Positions 21,906 to 39,718 of a DNA stretch of 41,136 bases are shown in pieces; position 1 is the stretch's first letter; each line of letters begins with the position of its first letter. Made by a program: the position numbers and the translations under genes. Under the pieces are notes generated by a model. That model saw nothing but the letters and a program-made list of their open reading frames with translations. It had not been told where the DNA came from and did not search any database. Origin of the DNA: an uncultured Clostridia bacterium (GTDB taxonomy: Bacteria > Bacillota > Clostridia > Lutisporales > Lutisporaceae); NCBI GenBank assembly GCA_937976095.1, contig CALJSV010000009.1, forward strand, positions 1 to 41,136. The letters are read 5' to 3'.

Positions 21906-22598
21906 TTATTCTTCTACCAGTGCTACAGCACGTATAGGTGAGCCAGAGCCATCTCTTATTTTTAGCGGAAGACCAAAATATATAAAGCGCTTATTGACTA
22001 CCTTATCAAGATTGCATAGATTTTCTGTATTTGTAATATCATACTTTCCGCATATATAGTGTCCGGAGAAGTCTACATCATCAGGATGATCAATAGCCGG
22101 GGCATCAACGCCGATGTTGACTACACCCTGCTTTGCAAGCCACTCGGCAGCCTCCATATTAATACCTGAGTAAGTAGTCTGCCATTTGTCTGTGCCAAAA
22201 TTCCTGTCATAGTGTCCAGTATACATAAGAACTATGTCTCCCTTTTCTATGGTTTGTCCAGACTTCTTTACGGCCTGCTCCAGGTCCTTTGGAGTTATGT
22301 ATCGTGTTGGAGGAATATGTGTCAAATCTATACAGATCGCACTTCCCCAAAAATAATTTAAAGGCATCTTCTCTATGGTAGCTCCACTGGGCTTATACTC
22401 CCATACAGCATCACAGTGAGTACCGCCGTGCTCGCTGATCAGCAGGTTTCTAGCTGAGAAGCCAAGTGTTTTGCTTCCTGTTTTTTTCATGTTATCTTCA
22501 TGAGTCATATTAGTCATAATAAAGGTATTTTGATGCATAGGAAAAACTGACATGCCCTGAAAAATTTCCTGTGAAAGGTCTATAAGCTTTAGTGCCAT
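21906..22598 (-). CDS. Cyclase-family metal hydrolase (kynurenine formamidase-like)
   Basis: 230-aa member of the family that includes kynurenine formamidase and isatin hydrolase, enzymes that open amide or lactam bonds using Zn or Mn. The metal motif is present as HGGTHCD (H57, H61, D63), and the C-terminal NTENLCNL segment fits the family. The usual DAPxH continuation reads DAVWE, so the normal active-site His is replaced by Glu67. An AGGAGAG-type RBS precedes ATG 22598. It is transcribed divergently from the microcompartment operon, sharing a 522-base gap. It is a candidate for one of the C-N hydrolysis steps in purine breakdown; the substrate cannot be read from sequence. Confidence 0.85.
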   Translation of the reverse strand: MALKLIDLSQEIFQGMSVFPMHQNTFIMTNMTHEDNMKKTGSKTLGFSARNLLISEHGGTHCDAVWEYKPSGATIEKMPLNYFWGSAICIDLTHIPPTRYITPKDLEQAVKKSGQTIEKGDIVLMYTGHYDRNFGTDKWQTTYSGINMEAAEWLAKQGVVNIGVDAPAIDHPDDVDFSGHYICGKYDITNTENLCNLDKVVNKRFIYFGLPLKIRDGSGSPIRAVALVEE

Positions 22599-23120: not shown

Positions 23121-24659
23121 ATGAAGTATGATGTAATAGTAAAAAATGCTAGAATACCATTGATGAATGGTAATGACACAGTAGTAACAAATATCCTTGT
23201 AAAGGACGAAAAGGTAGCTGGGTTTCTGGCAGACGTGACAGGTATAGAAGCAAACCAGTATATAGATGCAGAAGGCAATTTAGTAATGCCAGGCTGCATT
23301 GACTCACACACACATTATATGGATCCCGGTTTTACACATAGAGAGACCTTTGAAACAGGAACAAGCCAAGCGGCAGCAGGCGGAGTTACACTTACAATAG
23401 ATATGCCATGCTGCTCATCTCCAAGATCAGTCAGATGCGTTAGCTCTCTTAATGAAAAGTTAGATGCAGTAGGTCCACAAGCTATAGTAGATTATTGCAT
23501 GTGGGGTGGAGCTACAGGTGAAGACGTAAGAGAAGGTAATTTACATAATGTCAAAGAACAAGCAGACGCAGGCGTAGTAGCGTTTAAGGTTTATATGACG
23601 CCATCAGTTCCTACCTACAACAGAGTTACAGACCCAGAAATGCACGAGGTGTTTAAGGTTGTTGCTGAAACAGGACTTCCGGTAGGAGTACACGCTGAAA
23701 ACTTTGCTATGTGTGATTATTATGTTAAAAAGTATGCTCAAGAAGGAAGACTAGACGGTCCAGCATGGTCAGAAGCAAGACTTGAGCTTGCAGAAAAAGC
23801 AGCTATTCAGCTTGGTATAGCATTCTCCGAAGAAACAGGTGCAAGATACCATGTCGTTCATATGAGCACTGGCGTTGGAGCAAGACTTATTGGAGAAGCA
23901 AAGAAAAGAGGCTTAAAGGTTACATCAGAGGTTTGCCCTCATTACCTGGTTCTAAATGCAAAGGAATCAATGACAGAGCACGGTGCTTTTGCTAAGATTG
24001 CACCACCACTAAGAACTAAGCAGGACAATGTTGAGCTATGGGAAGGCCTTGCAAACGGAAGCGTAGACTTTGTTGCTACAGACCATGCTCCATATAAGAT
24101 ACAAGCAAATAAGGATAATGATGATGCAGCAGTAGAGAAGGATGCTCCAGGCATGAACATCTGGACAGCATTCCCAGGCATAGCTGGAACTGAGACAATG
24201 GTTAACATCCTTGTAAGTGAAGGACTCAATAAAGGTAGATTGACACTAGAGAGATTAGTCGAAGTTCTGAGCAAAAATGCAGCTATACATTATGGCTTGT
24301 TCCCAAAGAAGGGTGTGCTGCAGGTAGGCTCAGATGCTGACCTTACTATAGTTGATCTAAAGAAGGAATGGGCAATTGATAAGGAGCAGTCCTACATGAA
24401 AAACAAGTACACACCACTTCATGGCTTGAAGCTTACAGGAAAAGTAGTTAAGACTGTAGTACGTGGAACACTTGTTTATGAGGAAGCTAAGGATGAGATC
24501 AAGGGAAGAATCCTTGTTAAGCCTGGCTTTGGTCAATTCGTAAAGAGACAAAGCGTTCAAGAGCTTGACAGAAAGATAAAATTTGACAACTACAGAGCTA
24601 TTGGCTCAGACTACTTTGACAATGTTCATAGAAGAAACATCAACAACGTTATAGACTAA
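23121..24659 (+). CDS. Cyclic amidohydrolase (dihydropyrimidinase/allantoinase/dihydroorotase family)
   Basis: 512-aa TIM-barrel amidohydrolase that opens cyclic amides. Its binuclear metal site is complete: H63 and H65 (DSHTHYMDPG), K156 as the likely carboxylated lysine (FKVYMTP), H191 (VHAEN), H247 (HVVHMST) and D321 (ATDHAPY). The segments DPGFTHRETFETG and KIAPPLRTKQD place it nearer allantoinase/dihydroorotase than classic hydantoinase. It is the first gene of the microcompartment operon and sits upstream of an amidase and a UbiD decarboxylase. That order suits a ring-opening role on xanthine (xanthine amidohydrolase of purinolytic clostridia) or on a related ureide. The length exceeds dihydroorotase because of a C-terminal tail of about 45 residues after GRILVKPGFGQ, which could be a targeting element. 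Confidence 0.88.
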   Translation: MKYDVIVKNARIPLMNGNDTVVTNILVKDEKVAGFLADVTGIEANQYIDAEGNLVMPGCIDSHTHYMDPGFTHRETFETGTSQAAAGGVTLTIDMPCCSSPRSVRCVSSLNEKLDAVGPQAIVDYCMWGGATGEDVREGNLHNVKEQADAGVVAFKVYMTPSVPTYNRVTDPEMHEVFKVVAETGLPVGVHAENFAMCDYYVKKYAQEGRLDGPAWSEARLELAEKAAIQLGIAFSEETGARYHVVHMSTGVGARLIGEAKKRGLKVTSEVCPHYLVLNAKESMTEHGAFAKIAPPLRTKQDNVELWEGLANGSVDFVATDHAPYKIQANKDNDDAAVEKDAPGMNIWTAFPGIAGTETMVNILVSEGLNKGRLTLERLVEVLSKNAAIHYGLFPKKGVLQVGSDADLTIVDLKKEWAIDKEQSYMKNKYTPLHGLKLTGKVVKTVVRGTLVYEEAKDEIKGRILVKPGFGQFVKRQSVQELDRKIKFDNYRAIGSDYFDNVHRRNINNVID

Positions 24660-24787: not shown

Positions 24788-25399
24788 ATGCCGAGACATG
24801 GTATTGTTGTTATTGATATGTTAAATGATTTTGTAGGTGAGAAGGCACCTCTTCGCTGCCCGGGTGGAGAAGAAATAGTTCCAAACCTGCAAAAGCTTTT
24901 TAAGTGGGTCAGAGAAAGAAATGCAGCCGGTAAGGATGATATTCAGCTGATTCATATTCAAGAGGCTCACAGAAAGAACGATGCAGACTTTAGAGTAAGA
25001 CCTGTTCATGCTATCAAGGGTACATGGGGCTCAGATTTCATACCAGAGCTTTATCCTGAGGGTGAAGAGTATATAGTTCAAAAGAGAAGACACAGCGGCT
25101 TCCAACACACAGATTTAGATCTATATCTCAAGGAAGAAAATCTTGATACAGTAGTTGTAACGGGAGTTTGGACAAACGTTTGTGTAAGATCAACAGCTGC
25201 TGATGCTCTAGCTAATGCATACAGAGTTATAACTCTAAGCGATGGAGTACACTCCAAAAACGAAGAGATGCATAAGCATGGTCTAGTTGACCTTAGCATA
25301 TTTACAAAGGTTATGACAATAGACGAATATATCAACGCATGGGAAAAGGGCGCAGATCCATGGGTTGGCGGTGGAGATAAAGAAAACAAGGTAGAGTAA
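24788..25399 (+). CDS. Isochorismatase-family cysteine amidohydrolase
   Basis: 203-aa cysteine hydrolase related to nicotinamidase, N-carbamoylsarcosine amidase and ureidoacrylate amidohydrolase. The catalytic triad is visible: D10 (IVVIDMLNDF), K99 (IVQKRRHSGF) and C132 (GVWTNVCVRSTAADA). The HIQEAH and GTWGSDFIPEL segments are typical of carbamoyl/amide hydrolases. It follows the cyclic amidohydrolase, so removal of a ureido/carbamoyl group (NH3 plus CO2) from the ring-opened product is the natural guess, matching 4-ureido-5-imidazolecarboxylate hydrolysis. The C-terminus ends in a charged WVGGGDKENKVE tail. Family sure; substrate inferred. Confidence 0.88.
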   Translation: MPRHGIVVIDMLNDFVGEKAPLRCPGGEEIVPNLQKLFKWVRERNAAGKDDIQLIHIQEAHRKNDADFRVRPVHAIKGTWGSDFIPELYPEGEEYIVQKRRHSGFQHTDLDLYLKEENLDTVVVTGVWTNVCVRSTAADALANAYRVITLSDGVHSKNEEMHKHGLVDLSIFTKVMTIDEYINAWEKGADPWVGGGDKENKVE

Positions 25400-25432: not shown

Positions 25433-25996
25433 ATGAGAATAGTAGTAGGTATAACCGGGGGCAGCGGTGCTATTTACTCCGTGGCTCTATTGCAGGCACT
25501 CAAGCAGGCAGGTGTTGAAGCTCACGTGGTTATGTCAAGGATGGGCGAGCAGGTGCTGGAGCATGAGTGCGGCTTTAAGAGAGAAGATATTGCACAGTAT
25601 GCAAAGTGCATATATGATAACGGAGATTTATTTGCTCCTATTGCCAGCGGTACCTTTAAAATGGATGGAATGGTAATAGTGCCATGCTCCATGAAAACCT
25701 TATCAGCGGTATCAACAGGATATTCAGACGGTCTGCTTACAAGAAGCGCAGATGTTACGCTTAAAGAAGGCAGAAAGCTGGTTATAGTTCCTAGAGAAAC
25801 ACCGCTGAACCAAATACATCTAGAAAACATGCTAAAGCTTTCCCGAATGGGAGTTGTAATAATGCCGGCCTCTCCGGGCTTTTATAATCATCCGCAGACA
25901 ATTGCAGATGTAGTTGGCTCCATGGTTGGAAAAATACTGGACGCCTTCAATATAGAGCATAGTATAAGCGGGCGATGGGGAGAAGAACTAAGTTGA
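25433..25996 (+). CDS. ubiX: UbiX flavin prenyltransferase
   Basis: 187 aa. Makes prenylated FMN, the cofactor of UbiD decarboxylases. N-terminal flavin-binding GITGGSGAIYSVALLQAL, the VVPCSMKTLSAVSTGYSDGL segment and the late VPRETPLNQIHLENMLKL are diagnostic. AGGAGG before ATG 25433. It lies directly upstream of ubiD with 14 bases between stop and start. Anaerobic bacteria use this pair for ubiquinone-unrelated (hetero)aromatic decarboxylations; here the context is purine-type hydrolysis. Confidence 0.95.
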   Translation: MRIVVGITGGSGAIYSVALLQALKQAGVEAHVVMSRMGEQVLEHECGFKREDIAQYAKCIYDNGDLFAPIASGTFKMDGMVIVPCSMKTLSAVSTGYSDGLLTRSADVTLKEGRKLVIVPRETPLNQIHLENMLKLSRMGVVIMPASPGFYNHPQTIADVVGSMVGKILDAFNIEHSISGRWGEELS

Positions 25997-26010
25997 CGGG
26001 AGGTGAAAGT

Positions 26011-27372
26011 TTGGAAAAACAATCACTAAGAGCCTATATGAAAAGATTAGAGGAAAACAAACAGCTTTGGGTTTGTGATAAAGAGGTTGACCCTAAGTTT
26101 GATATGGGAGCTCTGGTAAGAAAGTTTAACGGAACAAGAGCAATGCTCTTTAAAAACCCAAAGGGCTATAATATGCCTGCTGTAGCTGGTATATGCGGCT
26201 GCCGCACACGCTATGCGGAGCTTTTGGGCGTAAAAAGTGACGAGCTGGTATTTCCTATAACAAAGGCTGTTGCTAATCCAATACCTTATAAGGTAGTTAG
26301 CACAGGAGCTGTTAAGGAAAACATAATCAAAAGGGGTATTGATATAAAGAAAATGATGCCCGTGCCAACCTTCCATGAGAAGGATTCCAACCCTTTTATT
26401 ACTGCTGGTATAGTGGCAGTAAGGGATAGTGAGACAGGCAAGACGCATACCTCAGTGAGAAGACTTCAGGTCCTCGGAGGCAACAAGCTAAGCGTTCTGA
26501 TTGAGTCTCCACTGCTAATGGATCAGGTGGCTGAATTTGATAGAAGCAATAAGCCTTTAGAGATAGCAGTTATTTTGGGCTATGACCCGATAACCATGCT
26601 GGCCTCACAGGTTAATTCTCAGGTTTATGGACTAGATAAGTATGAGGTTGACAGCGCCTTAAGAGGCGAGGCTTTGGAGCTTGTTAAATGCGAGACGGTA
26701 GATATTTTAGTACCGGCCCATGTAGAAATGATCATAGAGGGTGTTATACCTCCTAAGGTAAGGGAAAAAGAGGGTCCCTTTGGTGAAATGGCAGGCTATT
26801 ATGGCGGCGGTAACATGCAGCCAATAATGGAAGTAAGCTGTGTAACCCATAGGAACAATCCGATATTCCAGTTTAATTTCCCTTCAAGCTCAGAGCACGT
26901 GCTTCCAAATGGACTTATGAGAGAAATGCACCTTTATTGGCAGGTCAAGAATATGATATCTACTGTTAAGGGAGTGCATCTGCCCACAGTTGGCGGCTGC
27001 CGTTTCCACGCAATAATATCAATAAAGAAGACTAATGAGGGTGACGGAAAGAGTGCGATACTTGCAGCATTGGCTAGCAACAAGGACGTTAAGCATGTGG
27101 TTATTGTTGACCATGACGTTGATATATTCAATCCGAGAGACGTAGAATGGGCAATAGCTACAAGAGTTCAGGCAGATAATGATGTTGTCATAATTCCCGG
27201 AGCTAAAGGCTCACCACTGGAACCAACTCATGAAATGAGAGGGGTTACGGCAAAGATGGGCATAGATGCAACAGCACCGCTTGGTACACTGGATGGAAAA
27301 TTTGAAAGAACCAAAATACCTGGAAGTGAAAGACTTAATCTTAAGGACTACTTCCCAGGCTTGGAAGGGTAG
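26011..27372 (+). CDS. ubiD: UbiD-family prenyl-FMN decarboxylase
   Basis: 453 aa from TTG 26011, which has GGGAGG (25998-26003) at 7 bases; an upstream open frame overlapping ubiX lacks an RBS. Family marks: SVRRLQVLGGNKLS, VPAHVEMIIEG, KEGPFGEMAGYYGGG and a C-terminal DIFNPRDVEWAIATRVQ. The stretch after the RRLQV strand, where many UbiDs have His-rich residues, reads IESPLLMDQVAEFD, so this is a divergent subgroup. UbiD enzymes decarboxylate aromatic and heteroaromatic acids including five-membered rings. In this operon, 4-amino-5-imidazolecarboxylate is the best candidate substrate (inference). It is the last enzyme before the shell genes. Confidence 0.88.
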   Translation: MEKQSLRAYMKRLEENKQLWVCDKEVDPKFDMGALVRKFNGTRAMLFKNPKGYNMPAVAGICGCRTRYAELLGVKSDELVFPITKAVANPIPYKVVSTGAVKENIIKRGIDIKKMMPVPTFHEKDSNPFITAGIVAVRDSETGKTHTSVRRLQVLGGNKLSVLIESPLLMDQVAEFDRSNKPLEIAVILGYDPITMLASQVNSQVYGLDKYEVDSALRGEALELVKCETVDILVPAHVEMIIEGVIPPKVREKEGPFGEMAGYYGGGNMQPIMEVSCVTHRNNPIFQFNFPSSSEHVLPNGLMREMHLYWQVKNMISTVKGVHLPTVGGCRFHAIISIKKTNEGDGKSAILAALASNKDVKHVVIVDHDVDIFNPRDVEWAIATRVQADNDVVIIPGAKGSPLEPTHEMRGVTAKMGIDATAPLGTLDGKFERTKIPGSERLNLKDYFPGLEG

Positions 27373-27381
27373 GTGCTGTAA

Positions 27382-27669
27382 ATGATGATTAAAAAAGCAC
27401 TAGGAATGGTTGAAACAAGAGGACTGGTAGCTGCAGTACAAGCATCAGATGCTATGGTAAAGGCAGCCAACGTAGAGATAGTAAATTTTAAGGTGGTTGG
27501 CTCAGGTCTTGTAGCAGTTATGGTTGATGGAGATGTTGCTGCTGTTCAGTCAGCAGTTGATATCGGTGCTGATGCCTGTGGAAGACTGGGAGAGCTTATT
27601 GCCTACAATGTAATACCAAGACCCCATGAAGAGGTCATAAAATTCATCACAATGATGGACCTGATCTAG
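27382..27669 (+). CDS. BMC-H microcompartment shell protein 1
   Basis: 95-aa single BMC domain, forming hexameric shell tiles with a central pore. Typical N-terminus ALGMVETRGLVAAVQASDAM, the pore loop KVVGSGLVAVMV (GSG as in PduA-like proteins) and the C-terminal edge AYNVIPRPHEEV. It starts 9 bases after ubiD with only a weak RBS (AGGTG), suggesting lower expression or coupling. The first of three BMC-H genes here. Confidence 0.96.
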   Translation: MMIKKALGMVETRGLVAAVQASDAMVKAANVEIVNFKVVGSGLVAVMVDGDVAAVQSAVDIGADACGRLGELIAYNVIPRPHEEVIKFITMMDLI

Positions 27670-27681
27670 GAGGGGAGATAT

Positions 27682-28029
27682 ATGTCAAACCCATTAATGA
27701 GAGTAATGCTTGAAAACATATTAGTAAAAGAAGGCAAAATGAAGCCCGCAAGCAGCAGTGCAAGAGCTGATACTAGCCCTGGTGCAGGCAGCATACACCT
27801 CAATAAAGAGCAGCAAAGCCTTCTAATAAAAAGCGTGCTAAAGGATAATAGCAAAGCAACATATGATAGCAGGCCTGCAGCTGAGAACAGCTCAGGAAGG
27901 ATGATAACACTGGAGGCTTTAAGGGGAGACAAAAAAACTTCTCCCACCGCTGAGACAGAAAGAAAAGTCACAGCCTCAAAAACCATGGTTACATTAGCTT
28001 CAATAGGCAAGCTGGCAAAAAAGGATTAA
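27682..28029 (+). CDS. Small low-complexity microcompartment-associated protein A
   Basis: 115 aa, not recognised as a named family. Residues 1-18 (SNPLMRVMLENILVKEG) could form an amphipathic helix like the encapsulation peptides of microcompartment cargo. The middle is rich in Ser, Ala, Pro and Lys, likely disordered. Two copies of a short motif follow, RMITLEALR (73-81) and KTMVTLASIGK (100-110), separated by 27 residues. The same motif occurs twice in the protein at 28854. Strong RBS AGGAGGGG before ATG 27682. Flanked by shell genes on both sides. A linker or scaffold between cargo and shell is a reasonable hypothesis, no more. Confidence 0.8.
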   Translation: MSNPLMRVMLENILVKEGKMKPASSSARADTSPGAGSIHLNKEQQSLLIKSVLKDNSKATYDSRPAAENSSGRMITLEALRGDKKTSPTAETERKVTASKTMVTLASIGKLAKKD

Positions 28030-28051: not shown

Positions 28052-28411
28052 ATGAATGGAGCGCTAGGTTTAATAGAAGTAGTAGGTATGGCAACTGCCG
28101 TTTCTGCATTGGACGCAGCTTGTAAAAACGCTGATGTAAAGCTGGTTGGCTGCAACAAGGTAATAGGAGCAGCAAAATCTATCAGTGTCACCATACAAAT
28201 TGCAGGTCAGGTAGCAGCTGTAAGATCAGCAGTTGATGCCGGAGTAGAAGCGGCAAATAGGGTTGGTAAGGTTCTGACTGCTCATGTGATTCCAAGACCT
28301 CATGAGGAGCTGGATAAGCTTCTTATCTGCTTCAATGAAGAAGTAGATAAGAAAAAGACTGAAAAGAGGTCAAAAAAGGCTGAACAGCCTGAAGGACAGT
28401 CAGCAGAGTAA
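28052..28411 (+). CDS. BMC-H microcompartment shell protein 2 with charged tail
   Basis: 119 aa: a BMC domain (GALGLIEVVGMATAVSALDA to TAHVIPRPHEELDKLL) and a roughly 25-residue Lys/Glu/Gln-rich C-terminal tail (after NEEVDKKK). The pore segment differs from its neighbours: KVIGAAKSISVT, lacking the usual G-x-G turn, so selectivity or assembly may differ. RBS AAAGGAG before ATG 28052. The tail may face cargo or the cytosol. Shell role is certain; pore chemistry is inferred. Confidence 0.95.
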   Translation: MNGALGLIEVVGMATAVSALDAACKNADVKLVGCNKVIGAAKSISVTIQIAGQVAAVRSAVDAGVEAANRVGKVLTAHVIPRPHEELDKLLICFNEEVDKKKTEKRSKKAEQPEGQSAE

Positions 28412-28477: not shown

Positions 28478-28759
28478 ATGAGTGGAGAAGCTTTAGGTTT
28501 AATAGAAACTAAAGGACTGGTAGGAGCAATTGAGGCAGCAGACGCAATGGTAAAGGCAGCTAACGTAACTATAGAGGGCTTCGAGAAGATCGGCTTCGGT
28601 TTGGTTACTGTTATGGTAAGAGGAGACGTAGGAGCTGTTAAGGCTGCTACTGAGGTTGGAGCAGAAGCTGCTAGAGCAGTTGGAGAACTGTTCTCAGTAC
28701 ATGTAATACCAAGACCACATACAGAAGTTGAAAGAGTTATCTTAAAGGGCAACAAATAA
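28478..28759 (+). CDS. BMC-H microcompartment shell protein 3
   Basis: 93-aa compact BMC-H of PduA/EutM type: [21 protein letters not shown], pore loop [15 protein letters not shown], edge [15 protein letters not shown]. The pore has Phe where shell protein 1 has Ser (GFG versus GSG), which would narrow or hydrophobically line the opening. It has the best RBS of the three (AAGGAGG, 8 bases), and a stable hairpin follows the gene, both consistent with it being the major shell tile. Confidence 0.96.
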
Positions 28760-28853: not shown

Positions 28854-29177
28854 ATGAAGGATGTAAGAACCTTTGCAAGCATGATACTTGCTGAGTTATC
28901 TGGCAGAATGAACAAAAAAAACAAAAGCATGAGCAACGCAAAAAGCCCTAGGGAAATGGTGACCTTAGAGGGTCTAACAAAAAAGCCTGTTGAAGCCGCA
29001 AAAAGCAGTACTTTAAAAGCTGTTGAGAACTCGGCTGCAGGTAAGTCTATTATTACGCTTAAGGATATAGAAAAAATGCAAAATGTCCAGGTTATTGCAA
29101 TTAAGAAGGGTGATATACTAACTCCTTCTGCAAAGGACTATTTGAAGAAAAAAAACATTAAGTTGGAAGTGAAGTAG
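28854..29177 (+). CDS. Small microcompartment-associated protein B with EutQ/EutT-like end domain
   Basis: 107 aa. Residues 2-19 (KDVRTFASMILAELSGRM) form a potential amphipathic helix. Then come REMVTLEGLTK (33-43) and, after a Ser/Ala/Lys stretch, KSIITLKDIEK (64-74), the same motif as in protein A. The C-terminal part, KSIITLKDIEK then GDILTPSAKDYLKKKNIKL (86-104), resembles the N-terminal module I remember from EutQ and EutT (ITxxDIR ... LTPxAR). That relation is by eye. It sits between the shell proteins BMC-H3 and BMC-P. Proposed as a scaffold or adaptor partner of protein A. Confidence 0.8.
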   Translation: MKDVRTFASMILAELSGRMNKKNKSMSNAKSPREMVTLEGLTKKPVEAAKSSTLKAVENSAAGKSIITLKDIEKMQNVQVIAIKKGDILTPSAKDYLKKKNIKLEVK

Positions 29178-29234: not shown

Positions 29235-29504
29235 ATGCTTATAGGAAAGGTCATAGGTACCGTTATAGCTACAAGGAAAGACGAAGCTCTGGTTGGTGCC
29301 AAGCTTTTAATAACTCAACCCCTTGACATGAAGGGAAATGAAGTTGATAGCCCGCTGATAGCGGTAGATACTGTTGGTGCAGGCGTAGGCGAGACAGTTA
29401 TATATGTAAGCGGCAGTGTAGCACCCTTTGCCGTAAGAAAGCATGAAGTACCAGTGGATGCTGCCATTGTGGGCATAGTTGATAGAATAGATTTGCAGCT
29501 GTAA
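29235..29504 (+). CDS. BMC-P (EutN/CcmL) pentameric vertex protein
   Basis: 89 aa, forms the pentamers that close microcompartment corners. N-terminal MLIGKVIGTVIATRKDEALVG, a central LIAVDTVGAGVGETVIYVSG and C-terminal VDAAIVGIVDRID match the EutN/CcmL fold. A single BMC-P with three BMC-H is enough for a closed shell; no trimeric BMC-T gene is in the window. RBS GGTGG is weak, in line with the low copy number expected for vertices. Confidence 0.97.
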   Translation: MLIGKVIGTVIATRKDEALVGAKLLITQPLDMKGNEVDSPLIAVDTVGAGVGETVIYVSGSVAPFAVRKHEVPVDAAIVGIVDRIDLQL

Positions 29505-29525: not shown

Positions 29526-31337
29526 ATGAAGACGGATTATATTAAGAAGGCTATTGTTTATAGAAAGCTGATACATAACCTGATGAGTGAGGAAGGCTAT
29601 GCCGATATAGTTCTTTACGGCGGCAATGTTATAAACGTAATTACTAGAGAGATTTATACAGCCGATGTAGCAATTAAGGATAAGTACATAATGCTTGTTG
29701 GAGATTGCTCCTCCCTAATAGGTGAAAAAACACAAGTTATAGATGTTAGAGGAAAATATATCTCACCAGGCTTTATTGATTCCCATATGCACTTTGAGAG
29801 CAGCATGCTTACAGTATCAGAGTTCTCAAGGCTTTCCATACCATCGGGCACTACAACCCTTGTAGCTGATCCCCATGAGATAGGAAATGCACTTGGAGCT
29901 ATTGGTATGAAGGCAATGGCAGATGAGGCGGCAGTCATGCCAAATCATGTATATCTGGTAGTTCCGGCTCTTACGCCTGACTGTCCTGAGCTTGAAACTG
30001 CAGGCTATGATATAAACTCCAGCCATATGGAGGATCTTTTAAACTATAATAGAATAATTGGTATAGGAGAGCTTCAAGGCTTTAGCAATGCTAAGAATGT
30101 TTATGAGCATACTCCTGATATTATTGACGATCTTGTAGCATCTACGGCCTATGCTGTAGCAAACAACAAGGTTGTGGACGGCAACGCGCCTGAGCTATTT
30201 GGTAAGGAGCTTGCAGCACATATAATATGCACAGGTGGAAAGTGCTCCTGTCATGAAACAACGACAAAGGCAGAATGTGTTGAAAAGCTAAGACAGGGTG
30301 TATACGTCTTTATGAGGGAAGGCTCCACTCAGAAGAACATGGCGGAGTGCATAAAGGCAGTTACTGAGGAAGGAATGGACTCTAGAAGACTTATACTTGC
30401 AACTGATGATATGCTTTCAGAGGACCTGGTTAAGCTTGGTCATATGAATGAAATAGTAAAAAGAACTATAGCTCAAGGTGTAGATCCTGTGCAGGCAATA
30501 CAAATGGTAACAATAAACCCTGCTGAGTATTTCGGGCTGAGAGAAGTTGGCGTTCTTACTGCTGGTAAGCTTGCGGACATCGCTATTATAGAGGACCTTC
30601 ATCAAATGACAGTAGCAGGAGTATTTATAGACGGCAAGCTGGCAGCAAACGGTGGAGAGCTTCTGATAGATATTCCAAAGTATGTTTACCCTGATGAAAC
30701 CAAAAACTCAGTCAAGTGCAGCAAGGTTAGTCCTGAGCAGCTGGAAATCCACTCTAACCAAAGCGAGGTTACTGGCAGGTGTATAGGTCTCATCCCAGAC
30801 CAAAACCTTTCTGACGCAATAGAAGAGCCACTTAGAGTAAGTAAAGGTAGAGTAGAATGCGACCCAAGCAGGGATATAGCATATATAATATGCGTTGAAA
30901 GATATGGCAGAAACGGAAATATAGGAAAGGCCTTTGTTAAGGGCTTTGGACTAAGAGATGGAGCCTTCGCAGAAAGCGTAGCCCATGATACACACAATAT
31001 AATAGCAGCGGGCACAAACGAAAAGGATATAGCAGCGGCTATTAATAGAGTTATAGAGATGAATGGCGGTATAGCAGTAGCAAAGAGTGGAAGGATCATA
31101 AACGAGCTCCGTCTGCCTGTAGGTGGATTAATAACTGATGAACTGGACGGAGTTGGGCTGAATAGCAAGATAGAAGAGCTTCATAGGACACTAAGAGATG
31201 AGCTTGGCTGTAAGGTTCACGCACCGTTTATGCATCTGTCCTTCCTAGCATTATCAACTAGTCCAAAGTGGAAGATAACAGACAAGGGTCTGGTAGATGT
31301 AAATAATTACAAGATATTAAGTCCTATCGTTGAGTAA
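29526..31337 (+). CDS. Divergent adenine-deaminase paralogue of the microcompartment operon
   Basis: 603-aa amidohydrolase of the Ade family. ATG 29526 is 6 bases after AGGAGG. Metal-site residues seen: H87/H89 (DSHMHFESS), E182 (GIGELQGFS), H243 (CSCHETTT), D294 (ATDDMLS). Two positions differ from the canonical copy at 38000: DGHAP is DGNAP (Asn220 instead of a conserved His), and TDDRHP is TDDMLS. There is also a Cys-rich insert CTGGKCSCHE absent from the canonical copy. It directly follows the BMC-P gene. The changes argue against plain adenine deamination; 4-aminoimidazole deaminase is one candidate (inference). Confidence 0.88.
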   Translation: MKTDYIKKAIVYRKLIHNLMSEEGYADIVLYGGNVINVITREIYTADVAIKDKYIMLVGDCSSLIGEKTQVIDVRGKYISPGFIDSHMHFESSMLTVSEFSRLSIPSGTTTLVADPHEIGNALGAIGMKAMADEAAVMPNHVYLVVPALTPDCPELETAGYDINSSHMEDLLNYNRIIGIGELQGFSNAKNVYEHTPDIIDDLVASTAYAVANNKVVDGNAPELFGKELAAHIICTGGKCSCHETTTKAECVEKLRQGVYVFMREGSTQKNMAECIKAVTEEGMDSRRLILATDDMLSEDLVKLGHMNEIVKRTIAQGVDPVQAIQMVTINPAEYFGLREVGVLTAGKLADIAIIEDLHQMTVAGVFIDGKLAANGGELLIDIPKYVYPDETKNSVKCSKVSPEQLEIHSNQSEVTGRCIGLIPDQNLSDAIEEPLRVSKGRVECDPSRDIAYIICVERYGRNGNIGKAFVKGFGLRDGAFAESVAHDTHNIIAAGTNEKDIAAAINRVIEMNGGIAVAKSGRIINELRLPVGGLITDELDGVGLNSKIEELHRTLRDELGCKVHAPFMHLSFLALSTSPKWKITDKGLVDVNNYKILSPIVE

Positions 31338-31447: not shown

Positions 31448-32764
31448 GTGAATTCAAAAGCAAACACTGGAATGTTGGAAAGATTTTTCAAGCTTAACGA
31501 AAACAAAACCAATGTAAAAACAGAAGTACTTGCTGGTATTACAACCTTTATGACTATGGCTTATATAATCATAGTTAATCCTCAGTTCCTGGAAATAGCA
31601 GGTATGCCATTTAAAGAAGTTCTTGCAGCTACATGCTTGGCAGCAGGCTTTACAACAATACTTATGGCGTTCCTTGCAAACTATCCATTTGCTCTAGCTC
31701 CCGGTATGGGATTAAATGCATTCTTTGCATTTGTAGTTGCTGCTAAGTATGGCTGGGAGTTAGCTCTTACTGCAGTATTTGTAGAAGGTCTTATATTTAT
31801 ATTAATGTCCTTCTTTAAGGTTAGAGAAGCAATAATAGATGCTATACCGCTTAACCTTAAGTATGCAGTTAGTGCTGGTATCGGTCTTTTCATAGCATTC
31901 ATAGGCTTCAACAATGCAGGTATAGTTGTTCAGGGTCAAGGTACTCCTTTAGCGCTTGGAGATATGTCAAGCCCAACTGTTATTGTTGCCCTTATAGGTC
32001 TTTTAGTAACAGGCTTCCTATTACATAAAAATGTAAAAGGTGCATTATTTATCGGTATAATAATAAGTACTATAATTGGTATATTTGCAGGAATCACAAG
32101 TCTTCCAGATAAGATTTTTGACTTCGCTCCATCTATATCAACAATAGCTTTTGCACCATTCAGAATAGGCTGGGACAAAGTTCTTACGATAGACTTTGTA
32201 ATAGTAATATTCACGTTCCTATTTGTTGACGTATTTGATACAGTAGGAACTTTGATAGGTGTTTCCTCAAAGGCTAACATGCTTGACAAGAATGGCAAGC
32301 TTCCAAGAGCTAGCAAAGCGCTTCTTACTGACGCCATTGGTACAACTGGTGGAGCACTTCTTGGAACAAGCACAGTTACAACATACGTAGAATCAGCTGC
32401 AGGTGTTGCTGAAGGTGGAAAGACAGGTCTTACTGCATTAGTAACAGGTCTTCTTTTCCTACTTTCACTGCTATTTGCTCCTGTATTCCTAATAATCCCA
32501 GGAGCAGCTACAGCACCAGCACTTATACTTGTTGGTTTATTCATGCTGGAGCCAATCCTCAAGATCAACCTTAAGGACTACACAGAGTCAATTCCTGCTT
32601 TCTTAACAATAATACTTATGCCTTTAACATACAGCATAGCTGAAGGTATAGTGTTTGGTATGCTTTCATATACAATATTGAAGGTATTAGCAGGTAAGAT
32701 CAAGGAAGTTTCCTGGGTAATGATCGTTCTATCAGTAATATTCGTTCTAAAGTTCTTTGTCTAA
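31448..32764 (+). CDS. Purine permease, AzgA/PbuG type (NCS2-like)
   Basis: 438-aa membrane transporter with about 12-14 hydrophobic segments. The N-terminal TEVLAGITTFMTMAYIIIVN, ALAPGMGLNAFFAF and the later FVDVFDTVGTLIGV and GTSTVTTYVESAAGVAEGG are the signatures of hypoxanthine/guanine/adenine permeases. GTG 31448 has GGGAGG at 7 bases. Its placement between two purine deaminases suggests import of adenine, guanine or hypoxanthine feeding the pathway. Which purine is carried cannot be decided from sequence. Confidence 0.94.
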   Translation: MNSKANTGMLERFFKLNENKTNVKTEVLAGITTFMTMAYIIIVNPQFLEIAGMPFKEVLAATCLAAGFTTILMAFLANYPFALAPGMGLNAFFAFVVAAKYGWELALTAVFVEGLIFILMSFFKVREAIIDAIPLNLKYAVSAGIGLFIAFIGFNNAGIVVQGQGTPLALGDMSSPTVIVALIGLLVTGFLLHKNVKGALFIGIIISTIIGIFAGITSLPDKIFDFAPSISTIAFAPFRIGWDKVLTIDFVIVIFTFLFVDVFDTVGTLIGVSSKANMLDKNGKLPRASKALLTDAIGTTGGALLGTSTVTTYVESAAGVAEGGKTGLTALVTGLLFLLSLLFAPVFLIIPGAATAPALILVGLFMLEPILKINLKDYTESIPAFLTIILMPLTYSIAEGIVFGMLSYTILKVLAGKIKEVSWVMIVLSVIFVLKFFV

Positions 32765-32943: not shown

Positions 32944-34284
32944 ATGGCAACTATTCTGATTAAAAACGGAATCGTAGTTACCATGAATCCAGAAAGGCAA
33001 ATCTTTAAAGGAGATGTCTACATCGATAATGATCGCATCATGGAAGTAGCTCCTGATATGGGGGATATCAGAGCTGACAAAATAATCGATGCAGAGGGCA
33101 AGGCAGTCATACCGGGGCTGATTCAAACCCATATACATCTTACACAAACCTTACTGAGAGGACAAGCGGACGACCTAGAGCTTCTGGACTGGCTCAAAAA
33201 AAGAGTATGGCCACTGGAAGGCTCACATACAGGCGAGTCGAACTACTACTCCGCAAAGCTGGGAATAGCAGAGCTTTTAAAGGGTGGAACAACAGCACTG
33301 ATAGATATGGAAACAGTGCACCACACAGATGAAGCGATAAATGCTATTTATGAGTCAGGCATTAGAGCCATAACAGGCAAATGTATGATGGACTACAGCA
33401 GCGATGTTCCCGCTGGTCTTATGGAAAAGAAGGATGACTCAATAAAAAAGAGCGTAGAGCTTCTTAAGAAGTGGCATATGAAGGATGGCGGAAGAATAAG
33501 ATATGCATTTACACCGCGATTTGTAGTATCCTGTACAGAAGAGCTTTTAGTAGAAGTAAGAGACCTGGCCAAGGAATATGATGTTATGGTTCATACTCAT
33601 GCGTCAGAAAACCGGGGCGAAATAGAATTCGTAGAGCAGGATAGAGGCATGAGGAACATAAAGTATCTGCAAAAGATAGGTCTTACAGGCCCAAATCTGA
33701 TACTGGCTCACTGCATCTGGCTTGATGATGAAGAAATGAAGATACTAGCGGATTCAGGCACAAAGATATCCCACTGCCCAAGCTCGAACATGAAGCTTGC
33801 GTCAGGGATAGCTAAAATTCCTGAGCTTCTGGAATTGGGAGCTTATGTGTCTATCGGTGCTGACGGTGCACCGTGCAACAATAATTTAGATATGTTCAGA
33901 GAAATGCGAAATGCAGCAATGATACAAAAGGTAAGACTTCTAAGCCCGACAGTTATGCCTGCTGAGAAGGTCTTTGAGCTTGCAACCCTTGGGGGAGCAA
34001 GAGCTATGGGACTTGAGGATGAAATAGGCAGCTTAGAGAAGGGCAAGAAGGCAGATATAGCAATAGTCAACCTTGATAACATATATTCAACTCCAACTGC
34101 AGAAGTAGACATAATGTCGCAGCTTGTATATGCGGTAGGAGCACAGGATGTAACGACAACTATAGTAAACGGAAAGATTCTTATGGAGGATCGTAAGCTG
34201 ACTACTCTTGACGAAAGAGAAATAAAGGACAGCTGCAATAGACTCATAAAAAGTCAAATAATAAGAAGTGGAATAGTACTATAA
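32944..34284 (+). CDS. Guanine-deaminase-like amidohydrolase (TrzA/SsnA group)
   Basis: 446-aa aminohydrolase, single metal type. Motifs: THIHLTQTLLRGQADD, FTPRFVVSCTEELL (guanine-deaminase-like PRF), HTHASEN, LAHCIWLDDEEM and SIGADGAPCNNNLDMF. The PRF-xx-SC segment favours guanine deaminase or an 8-oxoguanine/SsnA-type enzyme over S-adenosylhomocysteine/MTA deaminases, which share the TLLRG pattern. It would turn guanine into xanthine for entry into the ring-opening route. GGGGGTGG before ATG 32944. A 4-aminoimidazole deaminase role cannot be excluded. Confidence 0.82.
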   Translation: MATILIKNGIVVTMNPERQIFKGDVYIDNDRIMEVAPDMGDIRADKIIDAEGKAVIPGLIQTHIHLTQTLLRGQADDLELLDWLKKRVWPLEGSHTGESNYYSAKLGIAELLKGGTTALIDMETVHHTDEAINAIYESGIRAITGKCMMDYSSDVPAGLMEKKDDSIKKSVELLKKWHMKDGGRIRYAFTPRFVVSCTEELLVEVRDLAKEYDVMVHTHASENRGEIEFVEQDRGMRNIKYLQKIGLTGPNLILAHCIWLDDEEMKILADSGTKISHCPSSNMKLASGIAKIPELLELGAYVSIGADGAPCNNNLDMFREMRNAAMIQKVRLLSPTVMPAEKVFELATLGGARAMGLEDEIGSLEKGKKADIAIVNLDNIYSTPTAEVDIMSQLVYAVGAQDVTTTIVNGKILMEDRKLTTLDEREIKDSCNRLIKSQIIRSGIVL

Positions 34285-34346: not shown

Positions 34347-35201
34347 ATGAATATCAAGGTTTATACACCTGATGTACTTGATGAGGCTGTAAACTTCCTG
34401 CAGCAGGATGGCGGTCACATAATTGCCGGTGGAACTGACCTTATAATAGAGCTTCGAAAGGAAAAGCTAAAGCCAGAGTTTCTTGTAGATTTGACCTTTG
34501 TTAATGAGCTGAGAGGAATTTTGGTTTCGGATGAAACAATCGAAATAGGAGCTATGACAACCTTTGAAGACCTTATAAACAGTGAGTATATTAAGGCAGA
34601 GCTGCCTTCACTTTGGGAATGTGCCATCAATATGGGAGCCTGTCAAATACAAAACAGAGCAACCATAGGTGGAAACATATGCAATGCAGCAGCCGCAGCT
34701 GACAGTATTCCGGTCTTTATGGCACTTGAGGCAGAATGCATAATAGCAGGAGCCGACGGCATAAGGAAAATGTCCATTGACAGCTTTATACTGGGCACAG
34801 GCAAAAACAGCCTGCAAAAGGGTGAGCTTTTAAAGGCAGTTGCTTTTAAAAGGCCTCAGAAGTCAGAGATAAACAGCTTTGCAAAGCTGGGAAAAAGAAA
34901 CGCCCTTGCAATATCAACCATAGCATGTGCAGTAAGAGTGAAGGTAGATAATAGAATAATCACCGAGGCATTTGTAAGCACTGGAAGCTTAGGCAGCAAG
35001 GCTGGCAGAGAGCTGGGAGTAGAAGTCTACTTGATGGGCAAAAGCATAACTGACCTTAACATAGATGAGGCTGCTGAGGTATTATCAGCAGAGGTTGAAG
35101 AAAGATTGAAGTCAAGGGCTTCAATAGCATATAAGAAGCATGCAGTAAAGGGTGTCTTTAAGGAAGCAATTGAAAAGTGCATTAAAAGAGCCAATCAGTA
35201 A
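34347..35201 (+). CDS. xdhB: Xanthine dehydrogenase/purine hydroxylase, FAD subunit
   Basis: 284 aa, CO-dehydrogenase flavoprotein family. FAD contacts: HIIAGGTDLIIELR near residue 24 and NRATIGGNICNAAAAADSIP near residue 109, plus the C-terminal cluster-interacting domain. Start ATG 34347 with GGGGG upstream. Forms a heterotrimer with the iron-sulfur (35219) and molybdenum (35716) subunits and passes electrons to the electron acceptor. Likely hydroxylates hypoxanthine to xanthine or works in reverse on urate; direction is not readable. Confidence 0.94.
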   Translation: MNIKVYTPDVLDEAVNFLQQDGGHIIAGGTDLIIELRKEKLKPEFLVDLTFVNELRGILVSDETIEIGAMTTFEDLINSEYIKAELPSLWECAINMGACQIQNRATIGGNICNAAAAADSIPVFMALEAECIIAGADGIRKMSIDSFILGTGKNSLQKGELLKAVAFKRPQKSEINSFAKLGKRNALAISTIACAVRVKVDNRIITEAFVSTGSLGSKAGRELGVEVYLMGKSITDLNIDEAAEVLSAEVEERLKSRASIAYKKHAVKGVFKEAIEKCIKRANQ

Positions 35202-35218
35202 GAAAAGTAAAGGATGTG

Positions 35219-35716
35219 ATGCATGTGGAAGCACTAAAAGAAAAAATAAGCTTTAAGCTAAATGGCAAAGAAATAGAGGTAGAAGCAGACCCAAGCATGA
35301 GACTCATAGATTTTCTAAGAGAGGTGCTTGGTCTTACAGGTACCAAGGAAGGCTGCGGTGAGGGTGAATGCGGGGCATGCACAGTCATAATAGACGGCTC
35401 AACAGCCAATTCCTGCCTTGTACTAACCTCTCAAATAAAAGGTAAAGAGCTATATACTATAGAAGGACTTCAAAAGGGCGAAGAGCTTCACCCGATACAA
35501 CAGGCCTTCATTGATGCAGGAGCTGTACAATGCGGCTTTTGTACCCCAGGCATGGTGCTTTCTGCCAAGGTGCTTTTAGATAAGCAGCCTGAGCCGGCTG
35601 AAGGCGACATTAAAAGGGCGATTTCAGGAAACCTATGCAGATGCACAGGCTACAAAAAGATAGAAACAGCTATAAAGATGGCATCAGACTATATGAAAAA
35701 GGATGGTGCTGAATAA
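35219..35716 (+). CDS. xdhC: Xanthine dehydrogenase/purine hydroxylase, 2x[2Fe-2S] subunit
   Basis: 165 aa. N-terminal plant-ferredoxin-type cluster GCGEGECGAC plus the downstream Cys of ANSC, and the C-terminal helical cluster CGFCTPG ... CRCTG. All eight cysteines are present. The start is uncertain among GTG 35216, ATG 35219 and GTG 35225; RBS AAAGGA is at 35209. The stop overlaps the ATG of the molybdenum subunit (TAATG), so translation is coupled. The name follows the E. coli xdhABC scheme. Confidence 0.95.
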   Translation: MHVEALKEKISFKLNGKEIEVEADPSMRLIDFLREVLGLTGTKEGCGEGECGACTVIIDGSTANSCLVLTSQIKGKELYTIEGLQKGEELHPIQQAFIDAGAVQCGFCTPGMVLSAKVLLDKQPEPAEGDIKRAISGNLCRCTGYKKIETAIKMASDYMKKDGAE

Positions 35717-37977
35717 TGGAACAGCTCAAGGTTGTAGGAAAAAGCGAGCTAAGAGTAGATGCGAAGGATAAAGTTTCCGGCAAGGCTATTTATCCCGCTG
35801 ACATCTACATGGAAAATATGGTCTACGGCTACACTGTAAGGTCAACAATGCCCCACGCAGAAATAGCAGTTGATAAAAAGGCTGCCGAGGCTTATCCGGG
35901 TGTTTTAGCTGTATTTACAGCAGAGGATGTAACCGGACTAAACCACCATGGAGTAGTCTTTAAGGATCATGAGGTTTTTTGCAGTAAAAAGGTCAGAAGA
36001 ATAGGAGAGCCTATTGCATTTGTAGTAGCAGAAACAATGACAGCAGCAAAGGCAGCAGCAAAGCTTGTAAATGTAGAATATAAAGAGCTGCCTGCAGTTT
36101 TTGATCCAATAGAGGCCATGAAGGAAGACGCACCAAAGATACATGGTGACAGTAACATCTTATATCACTACAAGCTGAGAAAGGGAAGCATGGACGAAGC
36201 CTTTTCTAAATGTGCTGTAGTAGTTGAAAGTACCTATGAGACATCAATGGTAGATCATGCGTTTTTGCAGCCTGAGGCTGGTGTTGCCTATGTAGAGGAG
36301 GATGGGACAATAACTCTTGTAGTAGCAACACAATACCCGCACTATGACAGAGAAGAGGTAGCGGAAGCATTGGGCTTGCCTCATGACAGGATAAAGATTT
36401 TGACAGCTGCTGTTGGCGGTGCCTTTGGTGGTAGAGAGGATGTAACAGTTCAAATACATCTTACTCTTGCAGCAATGAAGTTGAATAGACCAATAAAGAC
36501 CATATACACAAGGGAAGAGTCCTTCGAAGCACATTCAAAGAGACATCCAATGAAAATGAAATACAAAACAGGTGCCCTTGCGGATGGAACTCTATATGCC
36601 ATGGAAGCTGAAATAGTAGGAGACTCAGGAGCACACGCATCCTGGGCTCTAAATGTACTTAGAAAGGCCGGCGTACACGCCACAGGCCCATATACAATAC
36701 CAAATGTTAAGGTTGACAGCTATGCAGTATACACTAACAACCCCTTTACGGGAGCAATGAGAGGCTTTGGAGCTGGACAGGTTCCTATGGCCTATGAGCA
36801 GCAGATAGATGAAATAGCCAAAAGGCTCAATATGAGTCCCATAGAAATAAGACTAAAGAATTGCTTTAAGGTAGGCTCAGAAACAGCAACAGGACAGGTG
36901 CTCGAAGAATCAGTTCCATTGACAGAGACAATCCTTAAGGCAGCTGAAGCTATGAATTTTGAAGCAAAGGATCAGTCAAGCAGCAGAAAGAAAAAAGGAA
37001 AGGGAATAGCCTCTATATTCTACGGAACAGGCTATGGCAATGGATTCCCTGATGTATCAAATGCTCGGGCTGAGCTTAAGGCTGATGGCAGGATATACGT
37101 TTATGCCGGAGCAACAGAGGTGGGACAAGGAGCAAAGACAGCTCTAAGCCAAATAGCAGCTGAGGCAGTAGGGGTTCAGCTTGATGCCATAGTATTCATA
37201 AATGAGGATACAAGTAAGACTCCTGACTCAGGAACAGCAGCTGCAAGCAGACAGACCTACAACACAGGCAACGGAATAAAAATAGCCTGTGAGCAGCTAA
37301 GACTGGAGATGCTCGAGCTGGCTAAGGAAGTACTGAAGCTTAATACAACTGTAGGATTAAGAATAAATAACGGAATAGTGGAAGTAAAGAGTCTTCCCGG
37401 AAGGAACATTTCACTGGAAGCTCTATATGCTGAAGCAGCAAAGAGAGGCAAGAACCTGAAAATTGATAGAACCTTCGTTGCACACAGTGTCAGAATGGAT
37501 GATGAGACAGGGCAGGGAGCACCTTACTGGCCTTATACCTTTGCAGCCTTTGGAGTAGAAGTAGAGGTTGATACAGATACAGGCAAAGTGGATGTGCTTA
37601 ATGCAGTATGTGCTCAAGACGTAGGTAAAGCAGTAAATCCAATGCTTATAGAGGGTCAGATAGAAGGCGGCTTTGCAATGGGTATGAGCTGGACGCTTTA
37701 CGAGGATCTTGGACTCCAGCAAGGAAAAATCAAAAACAACAACTTTTCAAATTATATAATACCAACCTCCTTGGATATGCCTGAAATAAAGAATATTATA
37801 GTAGAAGCTCCCGAATCAACAGCACCCTTTGGAGCGAAGGGCATAGGAGAGCCAGTAATGATACCTGCAATGCCGGCAATACTTAATGCTATAAACGATG
37901 CTGTAGGTATAAGAATAACTAAGCTGCCAGCAAGCCCGCAAGAGATAGTGCGACTGCTTAAAGAAAAACAAGCTTAG
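35716..37977 (+). CDS. xdhA: Xanthine dehydrogenase/purine hydroxylase, molybdenum subunit
   Basis: 753 aa, catalytic subunit binding molybdopterin cytosine dinucleotide. Motifs: VGGAFGGRED, GAMRGFGAGQ, EVGQGAKTALSQIAAE, and the catalytic Glu in FGAKGIGEPVM. The segment AMRGFGAGQ, where many XDHs have FRGFGxPQ, is a variation that I associate with other purine/nicotinate hydroxylases, so substrate could be another purine. No XdhC-type maturation or Mo-cofactor gene is in this window. One-base overlap with the upstream subunit. Confidence 0.93.
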   Translation: MEQLKVVGKSELRVDAKDKVSGKAIYPADIYMENMVYGYTVRSTMPHAEIAVDKKAAEAYPGVLAVFTAEDVTGLNHHGVVFKDHEVFCSKKVRRIGEPIAFVVAETMTAAKAAAKLVNVEYKELPAVFDPIEAMKEDAPKIHGDSNILYHYKLRKGSMDEAFSKCAVVVESTYETSMVDHAFLQPEAGVAYVEEDGTITLVVATQYPHYDREEVAEALGLPHDRIKILTAAVGGAFGGREDVTVQIHLTLAAMKLNRPIKTIYTREESFEAHSKRHPMKMKYKTGALADGTLYAMEAEIVGDSGAHASWALNVLRKAGVHATGPYTIPNVKVDSYAVYTNNPFTGAMRGFGAGQVPMAYEQQIDEIAKRLNMSPIEIRLKNCFKVGSETATGQVLEESVPLTETILKAAEAMNFEAKDQSSSRKKKGKGIASIFYGTGYGNGFPDVSNARAELKADGRIYVYAGATEVGQGAKTALSQIAAEAVGVQLDAIVFINEDTSKTPDSGTAAASRQTYNTGNGIKIACEQLRLEMLELAKEVLKLNTTVGLRINNGIVEVKSLPGRNISLEALYAEAAKRGKNLKIDRTFVAHSVRMDDETGQGAPYWPYTFAAFGVEVEVDTDTGKVDVLNAVCAQDVGKAVNPMLIEGQIEGGFAMGMSWTLYEDLGLQQGKIKNNNFSNYIIPTSLDMPEIKNIIVEAPESTAPFGAKGIGEPVMIPAMPAILNAINDAVGIRITKLPASPQEIVRLLKEKQA

Positions 37978-37999: not shown

Positions 38000-39718
38000 G
38001 TGAGAGATATTATTATGGCGATGATAGATGTCGCTACGGGCAGGATGAAGGCCCAGCTGGTTTTTAAAAACGTAAACCTTGTAAACGTATTTACAGGAGA
38101 AATATATAAGACAGATGTGGCAGTACATGATGGTTATATAGCAGGTGTTGGGGAATATCATGGAGCAACAGAGCTTGACATGGAGGGCAAGTACCTCTGC
38201 CCCGGCTTTATAGACGGACACGTGCATATAGAGTCCTCTCTTGTTACACCTGGTGAATTTGCAAAGGCGGTAGTAGCCCGCGGAACTACAGCAGTTATTG
38301 CAGACCCGCATGAAATTGCCAATGTAAAGGGAATATCGGGAATAAAGTATATGATAGAGGGAGCGGAAAACATACCTCTGGATGTACATGTTATGCTCCC
38401 ATCCTGCGTACCGGCTACACCCTTTGAAAACGCAGGAAGTGTACTTAAGGCAGAGGACCTTCTAGAGCTTATTAACCATCCAAGAGTACTTGGACTTGGT
38501 GAGCTAATGGATTTTCCAAATATAATTGGCTGTGAAAAGTCGATAATAAATAAAATAGTTATGGCAAAAAATGTGCATAAGTACATGGACGGACACGCAC
38601 CGGGAATATCCGGCAAGGAGCTTAATGGCTATATCCTGCCGGGAGTAAGGACAGAGCATGAATGCTCAACAGCAGAGGAAGCAATGGAGAGACTGAGACT
38701 TGGCATGCACATTATGTTCAGAGAAGGCTCAGCTGCCCGCAACCTTGTAGACCTTATACCAGCGCTTAACGATAGCACCTTCAGTCGCTGCATGTTCTGT
38801 ACAGATGACAGGCATCCGGAAGATATACTGGTTTCAGGACATATTGATAACAACATCAGAGTAGCAATAAATAACGGCGTTGACCCTGTAAAGGCTATTC
38901 AGATGGCGACAATAAATGCCGCAAGATGCTACAACATAGAAAATGTAGGCGGAATAGCTCCGGGCTATAAGGCAAACATAGTTATACTAAATGATCTTCA
39001 AAACGTTGAGGTTTATCAAGTATACAAAAAAGGCAGACTGGTAGCTCAAGATGGCAAGGCTTTATTTGAAATAAAGAGCATCAATGACTCTAAGATGAGA
39101 AACTCAGTTAACTTTAAGCCCCTTGCCGATAAGTGCTTTGAGTTTAAGAGCCTAAGCGACAGTATGAGAGTTATAGGACTCCTGCCTCACTCGCTGGTCA
39201 CAAAGGATTTGAAGCTAAATGTAGTGCGAAAGGACGGAGGCTATTACACTGAAGACGGCGAACAGCTCTTAAAGCTTGCAGTCATAGAACGACATCACGC
39301 TACAGGCAACATCGGTCTGGCACTAGTAAAGGGAATGGGACTCAAAAACGGCTCAGTAGCTTCATCAGTAGCCCATGACTCACATAATATTGTGGTTATA
39401 GGCGACAACGATGAAGACATGAAGCTTGCAGTAGAGCACCTCCAGCAAATTGGTGGAGGTATAGCTATAGCAGCCCAGGGAGAGATAAAGGACTCACTGG
39501 CACTTCCAATAGCTGGACTTATGAGTGACAAATCCTTAGAAGAGGTACAGGATAAGCTTGAAGCAATGCTTAAGATTGCATATGGCATGGGAATTTCAAG
39601 GGACTATGATCCTTTTATGACCCTAGCGTTCCTGGCACTGCCTGTAATACCTGAGCTGAAGCTCACCGACCTTGGACTCTTTGATGTAGTGAACTTTAAG
39701 TTTGTAGAACAGAGATAA
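38000..39718 (+). CDS. ade: Adenine deaminase, canonical
   Basis: 572-aa amidohydrolase converting adenine to hypoxanthine and ammonia. Complete metal and active-site set: H74/H76 (DGHVHIESS), E168 (GLGELMDFP), H199 (MDGHAPG), H220 (TEHECST) and the TDDRHPEDI segment (D269/D270). Start GTG 38000 after GGGAGA. It matches the normal length of the family, in contrast to the divergent paralogue at 29526. It is the last gene of the purine run; together with xdh it channels adenine to xanthine. Confidence 0.96.
   Translation: MRDIIMAMIDVATGRMKAQLVFKNVNLVNVFTGEIYKTDVAVHDGYIAGVGEYHGATELDMEGKYLCPGFIDGHVHIESSLVTPGEFAKAVVARGTTAVIADPHEIANVKGISGIKYMIEGAENIPLDVHVMLPSCVPATPFENAGSVLKAEDLLELINHPRVLGLGELMDFPNIIGCEKSIINKIVMAKNVHKYMDGHAPGISGKELNGYILPGVRTEHECSTAEEAMERLRLGMHIMFREGSAARNLVDLIPALNDSTFSRCMFCTDDRHPEDILVSGHIDNNIRVAINNGVDPVKAIQMATINAARCYNIENVGGIAPGYKANIVILNDLQNVEVYQVYKKGRLVAQDGKALFEIKSINDSKMRNSVNFKPLADKCFEFKSLSDSMRVIGLLPHSLVTKDLKLNVVRKDGGYYTEDGEQLLKLAVIERHHATGNIGLALVKGMGLKNGSVASSVAHDSHNIVVIGDNDEDMKLAVEHLQQIGGGIAIAAQGEIKDSLALPIAGLMSDKSLEEVQDKLEAMLKIAYGMGISRDYDPFMTLAFLALPVIPELKLTDLGLFDVVNFKFVEQR

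Follow-up and report, generated by a model that had tools for sequence, protein, structure and literature searches.

The XAU/BUF1 microcompartment locus was predicted in 2019 by Ravcheev and Thiele, with deamination of 4-aminoimidazole as step 5 of its pathway (PMC6620236). In the published locus, genes for hydrolases, a decarboxylase, and shell proteins are followed by the step-5 amidohydrolase XauE (Amet_4572), an arrangement like that of the locus described here. The function was predicted from homology only, and a text search of the paper for "adenine deaminase" and "aminoimidazole" found neither term. The 4-aminoimidazole assignment for the XAU locus was already part of this 2019 prediction. 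According to PMC12507026 (2025), Tong et al. identified in 2023 the genes of the xanthinase pathway (doi 10.1016/j.chembiol.2023.04.008), clustered in the genomes of Clostridia and Bacilli that break down xanthine anaerobically.

The protein of interest here, which we refer to as XAUE, is a homolog of adenine deaminase (ADE). It resembles Agrobacterium tumefaciens ADE Atu4426 (PDB 3NQB) in fold, domain pair, HxH motif, Glu, beta-6 His, and Asp, and it differs from Atu4426 and from ADE as modeled by TIGR01178 in having Asn in place of His at beta-5 and two more residues before beta-6. A second relative is YerA, an N6-methyl-adenine/adenosine deaminase, which binds its metals through His87, His89, Glu179, His210, His231, and Asp283 (PMC12133300). 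YerA belongs to the same two-domain, binuclear-site family as XAUE and provides a precedent for a change of substrate; unlike XAUE, it retains all six ligands, including His210.

The XAU locus in the window

We analyzed a 41,136-nucleotide stretch of DNA (the window) from an uncultured Clostridia bacterium (assembly GCA_937976095.1, contig CALJSV010000009.1). The window encodes the components of an XAU locus: BMC-H and vertex proteins, UbiD, UbiX, ring hydrolases, an isochorismatase-type hydrolase, an ADE-like amidohydrolase, a permease, and a dehydrogenase (Table 1). XAUE follows three BMC-H genes and the vertex gene, and downstream of it are the permease, a deaminase-like gene, xanthine dehydrogenase, and a canonical ADE. 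A formiminotransferase gene is present elsewhere in the same genome. We equate XAUE with Amet_4572 based on gene order, not sequence; the Alkaliphilus loci in our ortholog set agree with the published locus (PMC6620236) in gene order. The domains of XAUE, an Amidohydro_1 barrel (PF01979, 99 bits) and Adenine_deam_C (PF13382, 201 bits), identify it as having the ADE-family fold.

Table 1. Features of the XAU locus and of XAUE, with positions counted from the first nucleotide of the window.
Feature	Position	Strand	Basis or remark
PF04199 cyclase-family protein, candidate 4-imidazolone ring-opening hydrolase	21906..22598	-	family and neighborhoods
Allantoinase/dihydropyrimidinase-like amidohydrolase, candidate xanthine amidohydrolase	23121..24659	+	family; function inferred from pathway
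Isochorismatase-family hydrolase, candidate 4-ureido-5-imidazolecarboxylate hydrolase	24788..25399	+	family; function inferred
UbiX-type flavin prenyltransferase	25433..25996	+	family match
UbiD-type decarboxylase, candidate 4-amino-5-imidazolecarboxylate decarboxylase	25975..27372	+	family match
BMC-H shell protein	27382..27669	+	
BMC-H shell protein	28052..28411	+	
BMC-H shell protein	28478..28759	+	
EutN/CcmL vertex protein	29235..29504	+	
XAUE, XAU-type ADE homolog, predicted 4-aminoimidazole deaminase	29526..31337	+	603 aa; domains and orthologs
His87 and His89, HxH metal ligands, kept	29784..29792	+	invariant across all XAUE and ADE
Glu182, bridging ligand, kept	30069..30071	+	alignment
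Gln184, two residues past bridging Glu	30075..30077	+	invariant in XAUE; Met in ADE copies
Asn220 (AAC), beta-5 metal-ligand position	30183..30185	+	His in all sampled ADE relatives
Pre-beta-6 loop, about residues 232-245	30219..30260	+	His232, two residues more than ADE, invariant Ser241-Cys242
His243, beta-6 metal ligand, kept	30252..30254	+	alignment
Asp294-Asp295, beta-8, kept	30405..30410	+	alignment
Xanthine/uracil-type permease	31448..32764	+	
5'-deoxyadenosine deaminase-like gene	32944		equivalog match
Xanthine dehydrogenase subunits (FAD, FeS, Mo), three genes	34347..37977	+	sequence; homologs
Canonical adenine deaminase, in-window control, His199	38000..39718	+	TIGR01178 663 bits vs. 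cutoff 472.5

An asparagine at the beta-5 metal-ligand position

An earlier note on this DNA had claimed that the ADE paralog in the operon has lost a conserved metal-site His, with the canonical ADE of the window as a control, and our analyses bear this out. XAUE carries Asn220 in the motif VDGNAPE, and the in-window ADE carries His199 in the motif MDGHAPG. In the HMMER alignment, Asn220 pairs with the His of CGHARG in 3NQB, the closest structural match of the XAUE model (TM 0.87, 30% identity). The spacing of the bridging Glu, beta-5 His, and beta-6 His is the same in the in-window ADE (168, 199, 220) and in YerA (179, 210, 231), and by motif and spacing Asn220 corresponds to the YerA ligand His210. 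AlphaFold2 models agree: in XAUE (mean pLDDT 93.5), Asn220 directly follows the beta-5 strand at residues 216-219, and in the in-window ADE (mean pLDDT 92.0), His199 occupies the equivalent place after the strand at 195-198. By both the 3NQB alignment and the end of the predicted beta-5 strand, Asn220 thus sits at a ligand position, so XAUE does not have the full set of six ADE metal ligands (H, H, E, H, H, D).

The remaining ligands, as the earlier note had also noticed, are retained: the HxH pair, Glu182, His243, and Asp294 are present in 80/80 XAUE orthologs. Two further differences had been read as part of a changed site. One of these, ATDDMLS in XAUE versus CTDDRHP in the in-window ADE, does not hold as a metal-site change, since both Asp residues are retained and what follows TDD differs from one true ADE to another, with CTDDVFP in the structurally characterized 3NQB. 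The other, a Cys-rich CTGGKCSCHE insert, is for the most part a misreading: it amounts to two extra residues, only Ser241-Cys242 is invariant among the orthologs, and Cys240 is missing in Bacilli. We also considered Cys242 as a substitute for the lost ligand and rejected this, because this Cys is also found ahead of the beta-6 His in a large, separate clade that retains the beta-5 His (L102-L118 and others). Literature searches on aminoimidazolase and on amidohydrolases with Asn ligands returned nothing decisive. What may be unreported in this system is the occurrence of Asn where canonical enzymes have a metal ligand.

Conservation and phylogeny of the asparagine

Whether homologs share Asn220, a check that the earlier note had proposed, was assessed in 80 loci drawn from a collection of 84,980 species genomes of bacteria and archaea. 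The beta-5 residue is Asn in 80/80 XAUE orthologs and His in 35/35 ADE copies from those loci (the raw counts, 82 Asn and 37 His, are higher because they also cover the window itself and the copy in its own genome). Because Asn220 is present in all 80 orthologs, it is neither chance nor sequencing error. Among 398 genomes of the phylum, drawn independently of the first set, 12 further genomes had the XAU type, all 12 with Asn, one of them identical to a locus already fetched. All 37 of the more distant ADE relatives that we sampled, from several subfamilies, have His at this position.

Identity to XAUE falls from 58% or more inside the clade to 42% or less beyond it, which makes the clade distinct. 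A tree of 25 Asn and 43 His sequences requires one Asn/His change, and a branch with a support of 100 separates the Asn group from the rest. Nineteen positions are fixed differently in XAUE and ADE, among them Gln184, His232, and Gln269, and 80 positions, the other ligands among them, hold one and the same residue in both groups. The clade-fixed changes that separate XAUE from ADE include residues 184, 232, 245, 269, 275, 426-427, and 578-579. Between XAUE and its ortholog in locus L001, dN/dS is about 0.03, with dS near saturation, indicating strongly purifying selection. This argues for a working enzyme and, together with the 80 orthologs, against decay as the origin of Asn220. Altogether, conservation shows XAUE to be a maintained, active-looking amidohydrolase and not a relic.

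XAUE could still be a second, ordinary copy of adenine deaminase in which Asn at beta-5 is tolerated, given that it scores 478.6 bits against TIGR01178 (curated cutoff 472.5) and that its overall fold is that of 3NQB. We consider this very unlikely. The same operon region contains a genuine ADE, as do 31 of the 60 loci with full flanks (described below), which would make a second adenine deaminase redundant; moreover, the His is invariant in every ADE group sampled. Annotation is also a weak guide, as C. acidurici has three putative ade genes and no adenine use (PMC3519856). The NCBI model passes XAUE and six of ten diverse XAUE orthologs (the other four fall below 472.5), so misnaming of XAUE proteins as adenine deaminase is probably common. 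In genomes with an XAU locus, adenine deaminase is probably annotated too often and xanthine fermentation too rarely, and Asn220 plus Gln184 provide a simple marker to split two enzymes that sequence models merge.

Two observations concern the sampled sequences themselves. A separate His-bearing ADE-like clade (L102-L118, L122, L124) mostly has the motifs GHYSxPE and SCHES. The locus L036, on a contig labeled Calditrichales, has the same order as the window and an enzyme that is 81% identical and close to that of the window; a recent transfer or a mislabeled assembly may account for this.

Gene neighborhoods and predicted function

We compared neighborhoods in 60 loci with at least 9 kb on either side of XAUE. 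In this set, for which the search favored close relatives, UbiD, UbiX, and shell genes occur in 59/60 loci and the cyclase in 56/60. Outside shell loci, the PF04199 cyclase is the most persistent partner of XAUE; there, Asn-bearing XAUE accompanies cyclase-family and formiminotransferase (FTCD) genes and, once, UbiD. These shell-free operons read XAUE-cyclase-FTCD-cyclodeaminase (L143), UbiD-FTCD-cyclase-XAUE (L141), and, in a duplicated version, XAUE-permease-cyclase-XAUE-FTCD-cyclodeaminase (L140). XAUE is thus found alongside steps 4, 6, and 7 of the pathway, both with and without shell genes.

A link between the Asn and the shell is not supported by our data: the Asn is retained in the genomes G164, G188, and G213, which lack any BMC protein, and in G047 and G212, where XAUE lies on contigs apart from any shell gene, so the shell is not the determinant of Asn. 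The same observations bear on the structural role that the earlier note had suggested and that would make XAUE a catalytically dead paralog serving the shell. One metal ligand is indeed lost, and XAUE adjoins the vertex gene, but none of the other ligands or catalytic residues varies, purifying selection is strong, and both gene and Asn persist in genomes without any BMC protein. A structural role is therefore extremely unlikely.

We conclude that XAUE is probably the 4-aminoimidazole deaminase XauE of pathway step 5, descended from the adenine deaminase family (probability roughly 0.8). The earlier note had raised 4-aminoimidazole as a possible substrate; gene context supports this well, but the assignment had been made in 2019 (PMC6620236). 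The strongest evidence for the function of XAUE is the shell-free operons, where Asn-bearing XAUE with cyclase and formiminotransferase genes points to 4-aminoimidazole deamination and against a shell-linked role. Formiminotransferase and cyclodeaminase process formiminoglycine-type products, so XAUE most likely acts between 4-aminoimidazole and 4-imidazolone. Based on neighborhoods with and without shell genes, it would act after UbiD decarboxylation and before ring opening to formiminoglycine by the cyclase-family protein. The proposed reaction, step 5 of the anaerobic xanthine pathway, would be 4-aminoimidazole + H2O -> 4-imidazolone + NH3. Some shell-free operons (L142, L143) have no UbiD near XAUE, which counts against this explanation.

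The choice of step 5 over step 6 rests on protein families. Imidazolonepropionase (HutI), which opens an imidazolone ring, is also an amidohydrolase, and the XAUE-cyclase pairing by itself does not fix the order, so XAUE might be the ring-opening hydrolase of step 6, with a different protein deaminating 4-aminoimidazole. This is unlikely given that ADE-family enzymes deaminate a ring C-NH2 and that kynurenine formamidase, which hydrolyzes an amide, is a member of the cyclase family. Furthermore, the other deaminase-like gene (at 32944 in the window, resembling 5'-deoxyadenosine deaminase) is missing from 18 of the 60 loci, whereas XAUE, which defines the set, is in all of them.

Proposed metal center of XAUE

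For XAUE as a 4-aminoimidazole deaminase, homology suggests that the intact alpha-metal set (HxH, Glu182, and Asp294) would activate the attacking water, with Asp294 as the base. At the beta-metal, Asn220 replaces one of two terminal His residues. The side-chain oxygen of Asn can serve as a metal ligand, as it does in other binuclear hydrolases, and adenosine and cytosine deaminases work with one metal. Most likely, either the beta site still holds a metal via the Asn oxygen, or a single alpha metal suffices; ligation by the Asn oxygen would favor Fe2+ or Mn2+. The Asn arose with Gln184, His232, and the two extra residues before beta-6, which would fit a pocket remodeled to take a smaller substrate with a single ring. 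On a more tentative note, to which we give somewhat less than an even chance, 4-aminoimidazole deaminases may form an amidohydrolase subclass in which an Asn-ligated beta-metal or a single-metal center was required for the shift from purine to imidazole deaminase.

The window offers two paralogs in one genome that differ at one of six canonical ligand positions, a natural test of the role of each metal in the superfamily. More broadly, anaerobic purine breakdown bears on gut uric acid handling (PMC12507026).

Variation among XAU loci

The loci vary in several other respects. In most relatives (L001, L002, and about 40 other loci), the xanthine dehydrogenase Mo subunit is divided between two ORFs that adjoin or overlap, and in L001 and L002 the second of these starts with its own ATG. 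The window, L036, and a few others have a single fused ORF (35716-37977 in the window, with the junction near 36997). The small protein encoded before the vertex gene has 107 aa in the window clade (28854-29177) versus 230-300 aa in most relatives; the short form keeps the C-terminal tail and has lost the central domain. The loci compared include L003, L017, L021, and L028, and the L028 copy is a flavoprotein (PF02441). This small protein and another small non-shell protein at 27682-28029 have in common a short repeated motif of the type (M/I/V)TLxxL that is rare in other operon proteins and is a possible shell or scaffold peptide.

Several XAU shell loci (L051, L052, L053, L055, L058, L069, L073, L076, and L080) have no allantoinase-like xanthine hydrolase nearby, although UbiD and the ADE-like enzyme are retained and, in most cases, so is the cyclase; these loci may start from a different substrate or use a different entry enzyme. 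Finally, two shell-free XAUE-cyclase operons with FTCD nearby (L143 and L075) adjoin genes for ABC transporters of the branched-chain-amino-acid type, which suggests that an imidazole compound is taken up.
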